Assembly (NCBI RefSeq): GCF_021462825.1
Contig: NZ_JAKEEB010000012.1
Coordinates: 124,001 to 188,000, forward strand
Direction of reading: 5' to 3'
From: Streptomyces glomeratus
GTDB lineage: Bacteria > Actinomycetota > Actinomycetes > Streptomycetales > Streptomycetaceae
DNA: 64,000 bases
Each line of letters opens with the position of its first letter. Position 1 is the first letter of the stretch. Below the pieces are notes generated by a model. The model was given only the letters and a program-made list of their open reading frames with translations. It did no database searches and had not been told where the DNA came from. Of this stretch, positions 42,301 through 46,668 are shown piece after piece. Made by a program: the position numbers and the translations under genes.

Positions 42301-43188
42301 TCAGGTGGCGTCGACCCGGTTCACGTCGTCCAGCATGCCCCTGCGCAACTGTGCGATGACGCGCTTGATGAGGCGGGAGACATGCATCTGTGAGCAGCCG
42401 AGCCGCGCGCCGATGTCGGCCTGGGTGGCCTCCTCGACGAAGCGCAGACGCAGGAGCGTACGGTCGCGTTCGCTGAGCCCCGCCACGAGGGGCGCGAGGG
42501 CGTGGAAGTCCTCGACGAGGCGCATGCCCTCGTCCTCCTCGCCGATGAAGTCGGCGAGCACCGTCTCCCCGTCCTGGTCGTCCCCGGTCAGCGCGGCGTC
42601 GAGGGAAGACGAGTTGTAGCCGTTGGCCGCGATCTGCGCCTCCCTCACCTCGTCCTCGGCAAGGTTCATCAGCGCGGCCAGCTCGGCGACGGTCGGCTCC
42701 CGGTCCAGGCGGGTGGAGAGTTCGTCGCGCGCCTTCGCCAGTTCCACCCGCAACTCCTGGAGGCGGCGCGGCACATGGACGGCCCACGTGGTGTCGCGGA
42801 AGAACCGCTTGATCTCCCCGACGATGTAGGGCACCGCGAAAGAGGTGAACTCGACCTCCCGCGAGATCTCGAACCGGTCGATGGCCTTGATGAGGCCGAT
42901 CATGCCGACCTGGACGATGTCCTCCATGTCGTCGCCGCGGCCCCGGAACCGTCCGGCCGCGAACCGCACCAGCGACATGTTCATCTCGATCAGGGTGTTG
43001 CGCGCGTACTGGTAGGCGTGCGTGCCCTCTTCCAGGGTGCTCAGGCGCTGGAAGAACTGCCGGGACAGTTCCCGCGCGTCACGAGGAGCCACCGTCCGCG
43101 GATCCGTGACGGTCGGCAGGGGGCCCTCACCAGTCCTGGTACGGACACTCTCGTCGGTGACCGTCGACCAGCCCATGGCGGTGTCCAT
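42301..43188 (-). CDS. SigB/SigF-family RNA polymerase sigma factor, 295 aa
   Basis: Region 2 (ARNTLIEMNMSLVRFAAGRFRGRGDDMEDIVQVGMIGLIKAIDRFEISREVEFTSFAVPYIVGEIKRFFRDTTWAVHVPRRLQEL), region 3 and region 4 (GLSERDRTLLRLRFVEEATQADIGARLGCSQMHVSRLIKRVIAQLR) are complete and typical of the stress/development sigma-B group. ATG at 43188 follows GAGG with suitable spacing; longer starts are less supported. It directs core polymerase to promoters of the GNNT-GGGTA(C/T) type, and one such site precedes the neighbouring RsbW-like gene. It is the probable client of that anti-sigma factor. Confidence 0.92.
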   Translation of the reverse strand: MDTAMGWSTVTDESVRTRTGEGPLPTVTDPRTVAPRDARELSRQFFQRLSTLEEGTHAYQYARNTLIEMNMSLVRFAAGRFRGRGDDMEDIVQVGMIGLIKAIDRFEISREVEFTSFAVPYIVGEIKRFFRDTTWAVHVPRRLQELRVELAKARDELSTRLDREPTVAELAALMNLAEDEVREAQIAANGYNSSSLDAALTGDDQDGETVLADFIGEEDEGMRLVEDFHALAPLVAGLSERDRTLLRLRFVEEATQADIGARLGCSQMHVSRLIKRVIAQLRRGMLDDVNRVDAT

Positions 43189-43421
43189 GACCTCTACCTC
43201 TTCCACGAAACTCACTCTTCGGTCTCTCGGGCGTCGTCCATGCTTCGTGTGACCGCGTATACCCCGCGGTTGGCATCTCATGTGCGCGTTTTCGCCCATA
43301 CGGCGTGGCGCTGGTCACCCGGGGGCGGCAGCGGAGGCTCTGCGCCGTACGACGGCACGGGTTCTCCCAGGGCGGAATGCCGCTCCCTTCCCGCGTCGCC
43401 CCGTGTCCCTAGGCTGAGGGG

Positions 43422-43853
43422 GTGAGCCCTGATGCGCCGAACGACGCCCGAGTCGTCCCCCTCCGTCCGCCGGGCGCGCCGCCCCGCACCGGCGGAGCGC
43501 CCCGCACTCCGCAGCAGCCGGGACCGGGGCCGCGGACGGCCGTTCCCAAGGAGCCTCTGTGGCGCGACCTCGTCGGGGACATACTGCGGCGCGAGCGGCT
43601 CGCCCAGGAGCGTACGCTCAAGGACGTCGCGGCGGCGGCCCGCATCTCGATGCCGTACCTGTCCGAGTTGGAGCGCGGCCGGAAGGAGGCGTCCTCCGAG
43701 GTCCTCGCGGCCGCGGCCCGGGCCCTCGGGCTGGGCCTCACCGAACTGCTCTCCCTCGCCCAGGACGAGTTGGCGCGGCAGGCCCGAAGCCGGTCCGGCC
43801 GGGGCCGTACGTCGCCGACGGCGCGGCACGACGGTCTGTGTCTCGTCGCCTGA
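43422..43853 (+). CDS. popR: XRE-family regulator resembling PopR/ClgR, 143 aa
   Basis: A Pro/Arg-rich N-terminal tail is followed by WRDLVGDILRRERLAQERTLKDVAAAARISMPYLSELERGRKEASSEVLAAAARALGLGLTELLSLAQDELARQ. This is the ClgR/PopR-type HTH that activates clp genes in actinomycetes. It is convergent with a two-gene clpP operon, as I recall for popR and clpP3-clpP4 in Streptomyces. The C-terminus ends LCLVA, resembling ssrA-type LVA/LAA tails; PopR is reported to be degraded by ClpP through C-terminal alanines. The start GTG 43422 sits almost on its SD, so the true start could differ slightly. Confidence 0.75.
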   Translation: MSPDAPNDARVVPLRPPGAPPRTGGAPRTPQQPGPGPRTAVPKEPLWRDLVGDILRRERLAQERTLKDVAAAARISMPYLSELERGRKEASSEVLAAAARALGLGLTELLSLAQDELARQARSRSGRGRTSPTARHDGLCLVA

Positions 43854-43888: not shown

Positions 43889-44491
43889 TCACCCGAACGC
43901 GACCCGTCGGCTGAGCACTTCGTCGGCGAGCCCGTACGCCACGGCTTCCTGAGCGGTGAACACCCTGTCCCGGTCCATGTCGGCCCGCAGGGTCGCCACA
44001 TCATGGTGCGTGTGCCGGGAGAGCACCTCCTCCACCTGGGAGCGGATGCGGACCATCTCCTTGGCCTTGAGGCTCAGGTCCGAGACCGTTCCCTGCTGCC
44101 CGCCGGCCGCGGGCTGGCCGAGCAGCACCCGGGAGTGCTGCAGCACGAACCGCCGGCCCGGGTCGCCGCCGGCCAGCAGCACCGCCGCCGTCGAGGCGGC
44201 CTGCCCGACGCAGAAGGTGGAGACGGGGGAGCGCACGAACGTCATCGTGTCGTAGATCGCCATCAGTGAGGTGAACGAACCGCCCGGCGAGTTGAGGTAC
44301 ACGGAGATCTCCTGCTCCGGGTTCGCGGACTCCAGGTGGAGGAGCTGCGCGATGACGACGTTGGCGACGCCGTCGTCGATCTCGGTGCCGAGGAAGACGA
44401 TCCGCTCGGAGAGCAGCCGGCTGAAGACGTCGTACGACCGCTCGCCCTGCGCGGTCCGCTCCACGACGTACGGAACCGTGTACGACCCCAT
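43889..44491 (-). CDS. clpP4: ClpP-family subunit with missing catalytic His, 200 aa (ClpP4-like)
   Basis: ClpP fold motifs are clear: [48 protein letters not shown] (catalytic Ser100) and [20 protein letters not shown] (Asp175). The active-site histidine, normally in [ML]-HQP, is replaced: [11 protein letters not shown] has Gly125, confirmed by the codon GGC. The subunit should not hydrolyse peptides by itself and may act as a structural or regulatory partner of the upstream ClpP. The start is one base after that gene's stop (TGACATG), so the two are coupled. Confidence 0.88.
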
Positions 44492-44492
44492 G

Positions 44493-45131
44493 TCACAACC
44501 CCATCCGTCGGCGCGAGGCGACCGGGCGGACGTCGGCGAGCGACTCCACGACCCGGTCGACCATTCCGTACTCCCGCGCCTGCTCGGCCGTGAACCAGCG
44601 GTCGCGGTCGCCGTCCCGCGCGACGGTCTCCTCGCTCTGCCCGGTGTGCTCGGCGGTGATCCGCTCGATGGCCTTCTTGGTGTACTGAAGGTTCTCCGCC
44701 TGGATCTCGATGTCCGCCGTCGTGCCGCCGATGCCCGCCGACGGCTGGTGCATCATGATCCGCGCGTTCGGCAGGGCGAAGCGTTTGCCGCGCGTTCCCA
44801 CCGTGAGCAGGAACTGGCCCATGCTGGCGGCGAAGCCCATCACCAGGGTCGACACGTCGTTGGGTATGAGCCGCATGGTGTCGTAGATGGCGAGCCCGGC
44901 GGTGACGGATCCGCCGGGGCTGTTGATGTACAGGCTGATGTCGGTACGCGGGTCCTCCGCCGACAGCAGGAGCAGCTGGGCGCACACCCGGTTGGCCGAC
45001 ACCTCGTCGACCTGCGTGCCCAGGAAGACGATGCGCTGGGCGAGCAGTTGTGCGGCGAGGTGGTCGTCGAACCGGCTGGGCGGGGTGTCGCCCTCCTCCG
45101 CCCGGGGCGAGAGGGTGGTCAGTGGAGTCAT
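44493..45131 (-). CDS. clpP3: ATP-dependent Clp protease proteolytic subunit, 212 aa (ClpP3-like)
   Basis: The catalytic triad motifs are intact: [11 protein letters not shown] (Ser103), IMMHQPSAG (His128) and [15 protein letters not shown] (Asp). AGGAG lies five bases before the ATG. It forms the proteolytic chamber that degrades proteins delivered by a Clp ATPase. It is the first gene of a two-gene operon, downstream of an exact TCTGCC-N3-GGCAGA palindrome at 45204-45218 and near a PopR-like gene, matching the clpP3-clpP4 system. Confidence 0.9.
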
Positions 45132-45203: not shown

Positions 45204-45218
45204 TCTGCCCGCGGCAGA
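45204..45218. promoter_or_regulatory. PopR-type palindrome TCTGCC-CGC-GGCAGA
   Basis: The arms are exactly symmetric around CGC. The site lies 73 bases before the clpP3-like ATG, in the 110-base gap after the epoxide hydrolase gene. From memory, S. lividans PopR binds TCTGCC-N3-GGCAGA to activate clpP3-clpP4; this is an exact fit, and a PopR-like gene is adjacent to the operon. Confidence 0.75.
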
Positions 45219-45241
45219 TTCGCCGAGGGCCGAGTCCGGGC

Positions 45242-46444
45242 TCAGCCCTTCTCGCGCAGCTGCCGGAAGAATGCCCGGACGTCGTCCACCAGCAGGTCCG
45301 GCTCCTCCATCGCCGCGAAGTGCCCGCCCCGGTCGAACTCCGTCCAGCGCACGATGTTCTCGGTGCGCTCCGCCCTGTGCCGCAGCGGTACCTGGATCTC
45401 GGCCGGGAACACGGCGAGCGCGGTGGGCACGGTCGACGGCTCGGCAGGGGCTGCCGCCCGGCCCGAGGGGTGGGCCCGCTCGTAGTAGATCTGCGCGGAG
45501 GAACCGGCGGTCCCGGTGAGCCAGTACAGCATCACGTCGGTGAGCAGCCGGTCGCGGTCCACGGCCTCCTCCGGCAGTTCCTCGGAGTCCGTCCACTCCC
45601 GGAACTTCTCGACGATCCAGGCCAGTTGGCCGACGGGCGAGTCCGTGAGCGCGTAGGCGAGGGTCCCCGGGCGGGTCGAGTGCAGGATCGCGTACCCCGC
45701 GCCCTCGCGCTGCCATGCGTCCCAGCGGCGCCAGGAGGTGAGGGTACGCTCCCGCTCCTCGGGGCTCAGGGTGGCCAGTTCGTCGCCGGTCGGCTCGGTG
45801 AGCTGCTGCGCTCCCGGCAGCAGGTTGAGGTGGACGCCGATCACCCGGTCGGGGTGGGCGCGGCCCAGCTCGCGGGAGATCGCCGCGCCCCAGTCGCCGC
45901 CCTGTGCGCCGAACCGCCGGTATCCGAGCCGCCGCATCAGCTCGGCCCAGGCGTCCGCGACCCGCCCCGCCTCCCAGCCCCGGTCCCGGGTGGGCCCGGA
46001 CAGTCCGAACCCGGGAATGCCCGGCACGACGACGTGGAACGCGTCGGCCGGGTCGCCGCCGTGCGCGGCCGGGTCGGTCAGCGGCCCCACCACATCGAGG
46101 AACTCGACAAGGGACCCCGGCCATCCATGGGTGACGACCAGCGGGGTGGCGTCGGGCTCGGGGGAGCGGACGTGGGCGAAGTGGACGTTCGCCCCGTCGA
46201 TCGTGGTGGTGAACTGCGGCCACTCGTTCAGCCGCGCCTCGGCGGCACGCCAGTCGTAGTCGTGTCGCCAGTACCGTACGAGTTCGCGAAGATAGTCGAG
46301 GGGAACCCCGTACGCCCAGCCCACGTCCGGCAGCGCGTCGGGCCAACGGGTCCGGTCGAGGCGGTCGTACAGGTCGTCGAGGTCGCTCTGCGGGATGTCG
46401 AGGCGGAACGGCTGGAGGGACGCTGCGTCCGGAGAGGCGTTCAT
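45242..46444 (-). CDS. Epoxide hydrolase (microsomal/juvenile-hormone type, EHN), 400 aa
   Basis: The N-terminal EHN domain (FRLDIPQSDLDDLYDRLDRTRWPDALP, PLDYLRELVRYWRHDYDWRAAEARLNEWPQF) precedes an alpha/beta hydrolase with VVTHGWPGSLVEF (oxyanion), VVPGIPGFGLSG, GAQGGDWGAAI (nucleophile Asp) and GGHFAAMEEPDLL (catalytic His). It converts epoxides to vicinal diols. Such genes are often chromosomal detoxification genes in Streptomyces. Start ATG 46444; the SD is weak. Confidence 0.9.
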   Translation of the reverse strand: MNASPDAASLQPFRLDIPQSDLDDLYDRLDRTRWPDALPDVGWAYGVPLDYLRELVRYWRHDYDWRAAEARLNEWPQFTTTIDGANVHFAHVRSPEPDATPLVVTHGWPGSLVEFLDVVGPLTDPAAHGGDPADAFHVVVPGIPGFGLSGPTRDRGWEAGRVADAWAELMRRLGYRRFGAQGGDWGAAISRELGRAHPDRVIGVHLNLLPGAQQLTEPTGDELATLSPEERERTLTSWRRWDAWQREGAGYAILHSTRPGTLAYALTDSPVGQLAWIVEKFREWTDSEELPEEAVDRDRLLTDVMLYWLTGTAGSSAQIYYERAHPSGRAAAPAEPSTVPTALAVFPAEIQVPLRHRAERTENIVRWTEFDRGGHFAAMEEPDLLVDDVRAFFRQLREKG

Positions 46445-46668
46445 GAGGGCGGATCCTAGGACCCGGCCGCAACGGCTGCCATCGAATAGCGGCGGGCGGG
46501 GGGTCGGCGGCCGCCCACCACCGGCAGGAGGCAGTGCCCGGTGTCGCCGGCAGTACTGAAAGGCCGATATGTCGACAGTGGAAAAAGACCGGTCTGCGCG
46601 CCACCGATGAGTTCGGCGCCCGGGACCGGTCTGCACAGTGATGACGTTCCCGCCCGAGGAGGTACCCC

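Follow-up and report, generated by a model that had tools for sequence, protein, structure and literature searches.

The window, a stretch of 64,000 nucleotides from Streptomyces glomeratus, contained two clpP genes in tandem on the reverse strand. The upstream gene clpP3 (44493..45131) encoded a ClpP with an intact Ser103-His128-Asp177 triad, and the downstream gene clpP4 (43889..44491) was an open reading frame for a 200-residue ClpP paralogue with glycine (Gly125) in place of the catalytic histidine. Translational coupling of the two genes is plausible because the TGA stop codon of clpP3 lay one base ahead of the ATG of clpP4. A predicted PopR operator was located upstream of clpP3 (45204..45233, reverse strand) with one mismatch to the consensus published in PMC9775585, and its score was reached in none of 100 shuffles. 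Convergent to the pair, a PopR-like activator gene (43422..43853, forward strand; start codon uncertain) encoded an HTH protein with the degron-like C-terminus CLVA, which scored 86.2 bits against the ClgR model, below the cut-off of 170. The tandem genes, the operator and the PopR-like gene with its degron-like tail are the components of a ClpP3P4/PopR module, and the S. lividans ClpP3P4/PopR backup likewise combines a clpP3-clpP4 operon with a PopR box and a PopR-like gene of this kind. As reported in the available text of PMC9765437, PopR is destroyed by ClpP1P2, and ClpP3P4 appears once ClpP1P2 fails. The genome encoded five ClpPs, and the triads of the other four (ClpP1, ClpP2, ClpP3 and ClpP5) were intact. 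By eye, an ORF beyond the PopR-like gene (42301-43299, reverse strand) resembled a SigB/SigF-type sigma factor, and an ORF upstream of clpP3 (45242-46636, reverse strand) resembled an epoxide hydrolase.

The regulatory arrangement was also found at other clpP3-clpP4 loci. A PopR-like ORF (BLAST E up to 1e-5) was present in the surrounding stretch of 173 of the 178 pairs from the genus and 85 of the 96 others. When all loci carrying an ORF of this kind were pooled, a few of which may hold ClgR itself, the C-termini were mostly LAA (259), followed by LVA (15). Since these ORFs were also present at the pairs outside the genus, the PopR backup logic may be older than the genus. Operators with at most two mismatches, counted without a shuffle control, were found at 45 of 60 sampled genus loci versus 7 of 96 elsewhere.

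A domain search identified ClpP4 as a full-length ClpP (Pfam PF00574, 233.7 bits). Alignments with three PDB structures placed the catalytic histidine of the solved ClpPs on Gly125 (codon GGC, 44117..44119, reverse strand), with Ser100 at the nucleophile position (TCG, 44192..44194, reverse strand) and Asp175 (GAC, 43967..43969, reverse strand) in register with the catalytic serine and aspartate. This agreed with the first-pass annotation, which had read a glycine at the active-site histidine position and the other two residues as retained. The active-site strand was ungapped in the three alignments, and one gap followed the Gln-Pro. The AlphaFold2 model of ClpP4 retained the ClpP fold with a pLDDT of 88.3, the handle being lower (73 for residues 121-130 and 62 for residues 131-140), and the nearest PDB chains belonged to 6iw7 and 4u0g, two structures of ClpP1P2 from M. 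tuberculosis (TM 0.89). ClpP4 has the domain and the fold of ClpP (peptidase family S14) but lacks its Ser-His-Asp triad. It is best described as a ClpP homologue rather than a canonical peptidase, and we infer from its sequence that it would be inactive.

Triads and docking aromatics in the ClpP4 clade and its partners

Wider searches and the locus sequences gave a whole set of 742 distinct ClpP genes. A tree grouped 275 of these genes into a ClpP4 clade (support 0.866), which adjoined actinobacterial ClpP2 there and in another tree (support 0.87), both built without ClpR sequences. The full triad was absent in 240 of the 275 genes and present in 35, so that triad loss is not required. In the order Ser-His-Asp, the main triads were SGD (173), SHD (35), AHD (23), GHD (7), EHN (6), SGE (5) and EHH (5); the rarer ones were SHN (4), WHT (3), SHA (3), SHS (2), WHD (2) and GHE (2), and SAE, SHH, SSD, FHN and SDD occurred once each, with all counts referring to distinct genes and not to independent events. 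The slot of Ser100 was occupied by Trp, Glu, Ala, Gly or Phe in other lineages, and 62 of the 97 ClpP4 genes outside the genus were altered. Triad loss recurred in other actinobacterial lineages through other residues. Among the matches listed, Ser was replaced by Trp in Nocardioides agariphilus (L250) and His by Ser in Luteipulveratus (L255), and the triad was intact in Sphaerisporangium, Nocardiopsis and Cellulomonas. Ser or His was lost in 230 of the 240 altered genes and only Asp in 10; as Listeria ClpP1 is active in complex with Asn in place of Asp (PMC9765437), these 10 are set apart, and activity has probably been lost in 230 genes, not in all 240. Outside the ClpP4 clade, SHD was found in 466 of 467 ClpP genes, the exception being a housekeeping ClpP2 with Trp (L239). 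A FastTree phylogeny with the three triad columns masked required a minimum of 8 losses within the ClpP4 clade, of which 6 concerned Ser or His, in addition to L239. With nodes below 0.9 collapsed the minimum was 7, including the ClpP2 case, and tree support was weak in places.

In S. hawaiiensis, the unfolding motors dock via ClpP2, on which three pocket positions have been mapped (Reinhardt et al. 2022, PMC9765437). Two of the motor-docking residues described there, Y96 and Y116, are equivalent to Tyr65 (44297..44299, reverse strand) and Phe85 (44237..44239, reverse strand) of the window ClpP4. In ClpP3, Leu88 (44868..44870, reverse strand) occupies a position at which motor-docking ClpPs have Tyr or Phe. 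ClpP3 lay directly upstream of 274 of the 275 ClpP4 genes, the remaining one being near a contig start, and this upstream partner had the SHD triad in all 274 pairs. When Tyr, Phe, Trp and His were counted as aromatic (15 ClpP4 carried His in column 85), both docking aromatics in columns 65 and 85 were present in 274 of 274 ClpP4, 58 of 58 ClpP2 and 54 of 55 ClpP1, but in only 2 of 274 ClpP3. The ClpP1 and ClpP2 sets consisted of genes best matching the genome's own ClpP1, or its own ClpP2 at more than 60% identity. One of the two aromatics survived in most ClpP3, usually that in column 65. Column 63, the third docking position, and the rest of the pocket columns were variable in both ClpP3 and ClpP4 without such a contrast, and mean pocket variability was similar in the two proteins. 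A non-docking ClpP3 was paired with an altered ClpP4 in 239 cases and with an intact ClpP4 in 33, a docking ClpP3 was paired with an intact ClpP4 in 2, and a docking ClpP3 beside an altered ClpP4 was found in none of the 274 pairs. In the controls, triad and docking aromatics were canonical in both genes of 52 of 54 other tandem pairs, 53 of which had both triads intact, and in 85 of 85 remaining ClpPs. The tree on the ClpP3 side required a minimum of 7 docking losses, including one ClpP1 (L213). Both the recurrence of triad loss in other actinobacterial lineages and the loss of the docking aromatics in ClpP3 had escaped the first-pass annotation.

Further ClpPs were searched for in 30 genomes, 26 of which carried an altered ClpP4. 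The housekeeping pair was present in all of them, with SHD in 29 of 30 ClpP2 and 30 of 30 ClpP1, one ClpP1 being split over two frames. In the exceptional ClpP2 of L239 (genome G631) the catalytic Ser was replaced by Trp; the ClpP1 of this genome had the triad and the docking aromatics, and its ClpP4 had Ser in place of Asp. L213 (genome G210) was the sole ClpP1 of 55 with Leu at the docking aromatic of column 85. Its ClpP2 was intact, and the same genome carried a ClpP4 with His replaced by Ala and Asp by Glu (L158).

We consider it probable that ClpP3 and ClpP4 assemble into a single backup Clp core and divide the work, with cutting assigned to ClpP3 and docking and feeding to ClpP4. Alternatively, ClpP4 could associate with ClpP1 or ClpP2 in place of ClpP3 and, as an inactive regulatory or poison subunit, re-target or dampen the housekeeping core. 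The accessory paralogue ClpP_ADEP is reported to interact with both ClpP1 and ClpP2 (PMC12607617), and mixing of ClpP1/P2 with ClpP3/P4/P5 is left open in the available text of PMC11005422. However, the position of ClpP3 directly upstream of nearly every ClpP4 gene and the reciprocity of the residue losses in the two proteins make such a regulator unlikely.

Conservation and selection of ClpP4 in the genus

In a survey of 199 genomes of the genus, a ClpP4 orthologue (E <1e-98) was found in 97, and glycine occupied the histidine position in all 97, with Asp changed to Glu in four. The search gave no match for ClpP4 in the other 102 genomes, which suggests that the backup can be dispensed with. 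The enlarged genus set comprised 178 distinct ClpP4 genes, which were selected for their origin, irrespective of residue (own-genus loci gave 172 and named Streptomyces, L242-L248, gave 7, with one common to both). Their identity to the window ClpP4 was at least 76%, compared with at most 71% for the remaining genes of the ClpP4 clade. Gly and Ser were found in 178 of 178, Asp in 173 and Glu in 5, so that the glycine, whose universality in Streptomyces ClpP4 the first-pass annotation had left for checking, is universal in the sampled genus. Gly125 was encoded by GGC (75), GGG (73), GGT (15) and GGA (15), and Ser100 by TCN codons throughout; together with Tyr65, these residues were invariant over the 178 genes while their codons turned over synonymously. 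In one locus (L102, genome G156), one TGA was reported inside the ClpP4 match; the 196-residue core was open, which places the TGA in the extreme end of the matched region.

The constancy of Ser100 and Asp175 in the genus could mean that ClpP4 still cuts in another way, with a different histidine, by substrate-assisted catalysis or with a residue of its partner. Candidate histidines were present, since His119 was found in 178 and His163 in 168 of the 178 genes. Among the His-rich columns, 52, 119 and 160 were common to intact ClpP4, and 162 (100 of 178) and 163 were biased towards the genus. However, 34 of 35 intact ClpP4 also had His119, which is therefore no new replacement histidine, and in other lineages the serine itself was lost. 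Cutting by an alternative route is accordingly improbable, somewhat more so than mixing with the housekeeping core.

Selection was compared between the two genes of the pair. In the genus, the median dN/dS over 1500 random pairs was 0.151 for ClpP4 versus 0.162 for ClpP3. Outside the genus, the values for ClpP4 and ClpP3 were 0.266 and 0.237 in 32 genes with Ala or Gly, and 0.196 and 0.153 in 17 genes whose changes were to Glu, Asn, His or Ser. Purifying selection was thus about equally strong on altered ClpP4 and on ClpP3, although outside the genus dN/dS was slightly higher for ClpP4. That excess in the two non-genus sets, the variety of the substitutions and the 102 genomes lacking a match would be expected if ClpP4 served no positive purpose and were simply decaying, its constraint having relaxed after duplication. 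Such decay has a very small likelihood, a shade below that of alternative cutting, given that dN/dS of ClpP4 equals that of ClpP3 in the genus, that Gly125, Ser100 and Tyr65 stayed invariant amid synonymous turnover, and that the ClpP fold was kept in the model. That the GGC codon stems from faulty sequencing or assembly can be discarded with near certainty. Nothing was found in favour of such an error, all 97 genomes and all 178 genes carried glycine, the genes via four codons, and His and Gly are separated by two base changes, which a one-base read error cannot produce.

A proposed division of duties in the ClpP3P4 core

In the proposed split-duty core, peptide cutting would come from ClpP3, which would now be poor at docking the unfolding motors, and ClpP4 would not cut but would have kept its docking pocket. 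ClpX or ClpC would load at the ClpP4 face, and the substrate would pass through the ClpP4 ring to the active sites of ClpP3. By analogy with ClpP1P2, the core would most likely consist of two stacked heptameric rings, one of ClpP3 and one of ClpP4, in which 7 of 14 sites would cut and motors would bind at one end. PopR, which ClpP1P2 degrades, would turn on ClpP3P4 when ClpP1P2 fails.

Several observations stand against this division of duties. The retention of Ser100 throughout the genus is not accounted for by plain catalytic death, and 35 of the 275 ClpP4 genes have the full triad. In L239, ClpP2 lost its serine despite the aromatics of ClpP1, and in L213, ClpP1 lost an aromatic beside an intact ClpP2. 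The other pocket columns also contrast less sharply between ClpP3 and ClpP4. Insensitivity of ClpP3P4 to ADEP, as reported in PMC12607617, would fit a degraded ClpP3 pocket, but it is not predicted for ClpP4, which kept both aromatics.

A similar division is known from housekeeping ClpP1P2 of Streptomyces and mycobacteria, where cutting falls to one subunit and docking to the other, whose own active site is dispensable. In S. hawaiiensis, the S113A mutation of ClpP1 abolished degradation and the S131A mutation of ClpP2 caused no reduction (PMC9765437). The first-pass annotation had proposed that an inactive subunit would halve or gate the activity. This proposal is not supported, and halving is doubtful, since ClpP2 S131A kept full casein degradation in that study and an inactive subunit may therefore cost little. 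In M. tuberculosis, cutting by ClpP1, docking by ClpP2 and the dispensability of ClpP2 activity hold in vivo, and a "forced asymmetry" strain, with both the ClpP1 patch and the ClpP2 activity mutated, grew like the controls (PMC9067928). M. tuberculosis ClpP1 has one aromatic of three, with L83 at the place of column 85, and is not the docking ring (PMC4416901). In the tandem pairs other than ClpP3P4, both triads were intact in 53 of 54, whereas most ClpP3P4 pairs have given up the dispensable site and their cutter has lost docking aromatics; ClpP3P4 appears to show in nature both halves of the M. tuberculosis forced asymmetry. The S. lividans ClpP3P4 has been described, in the accessible text, as a second ClpP core, and no split between cutting and docking was found there. 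Listeria monocytogenes ClpP1P2 is a mixed barrel in which the triad of one subunit is non-standard, and the same would hold for ClpP3P4, but the Listeria change is Asp to Asn and the subunit is active in the complex (PMC9765437), whereas ClpP4 has lost the histidine. In Chlamydia trachomatis ClpP1P2, ClpX and ADEP1 likewise act mainly via one subunit, ClpP2, but both subunits have Ser-His-Asp, and killing either serine cut peptidase activity by about 60% (PMC6773864).

On balance, we lean slightly towards ClpP3P4 being a naturally evolved, fully split protease that actinobacteria reached repeatedly on one path. ClpP3 would first have lost docking, ClpP4 would then have become the indispensable dock, and its unneeded site would have been lost by any mutation, so that the laboratory forced-asymmetry design would have evolved at least six times. 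The argument that docking was lost before the triad draws on weakly supported trees and on the lack of any pair with a docking ClpP3 and an altered ClpP4.

ClpR of cyanobacteria, plastids and apicoplasts is an inactive ClpP paralogue that works with active ClpP. The first-pass annotation had considered ClpP4 comparable in idea to ClpR, and the sequence data support this: ClpP4 is a ClpP paralogue without the triad, its histidine is missing throughout the sampled genus, and it is encoded in an operon with an intact ClpP and kept by purifying selection. ClpP4 may differ from ClpR in its descent: in a tree without cyanobacterial ClpR it lay beside actinobacterial ClpP2, and the triad was lost within its clade, by residues that vary between lineages.

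The bare observation has prior art, as a 2022 paper noted that S. coelicolor has one clpP allele without critical residues (PMC9067928). In the open-access literature, as far as its text was available, no report was found of the universality of Gly in Streptomyces, of the recurrence or of the reciprocal docking loss, although Viala 2000 and Gominet 2011 may contain a remark on the histidine. With these patterns, a curious residue becomes a testable rule for the evolution of two-subunit ClpP barrels. The split-duty core suggests why ClpP3P4 of Streptomyces does not simply replace ClpP1P2, as it would have one motor-docking face and other cutting sites, and it offers a possible reason for the reported ADEP insensitivity. 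The 35 intact and 240 altered ClpP4 genes form a natural series in which it can be asked why an apparently inactive protease ring is kept.
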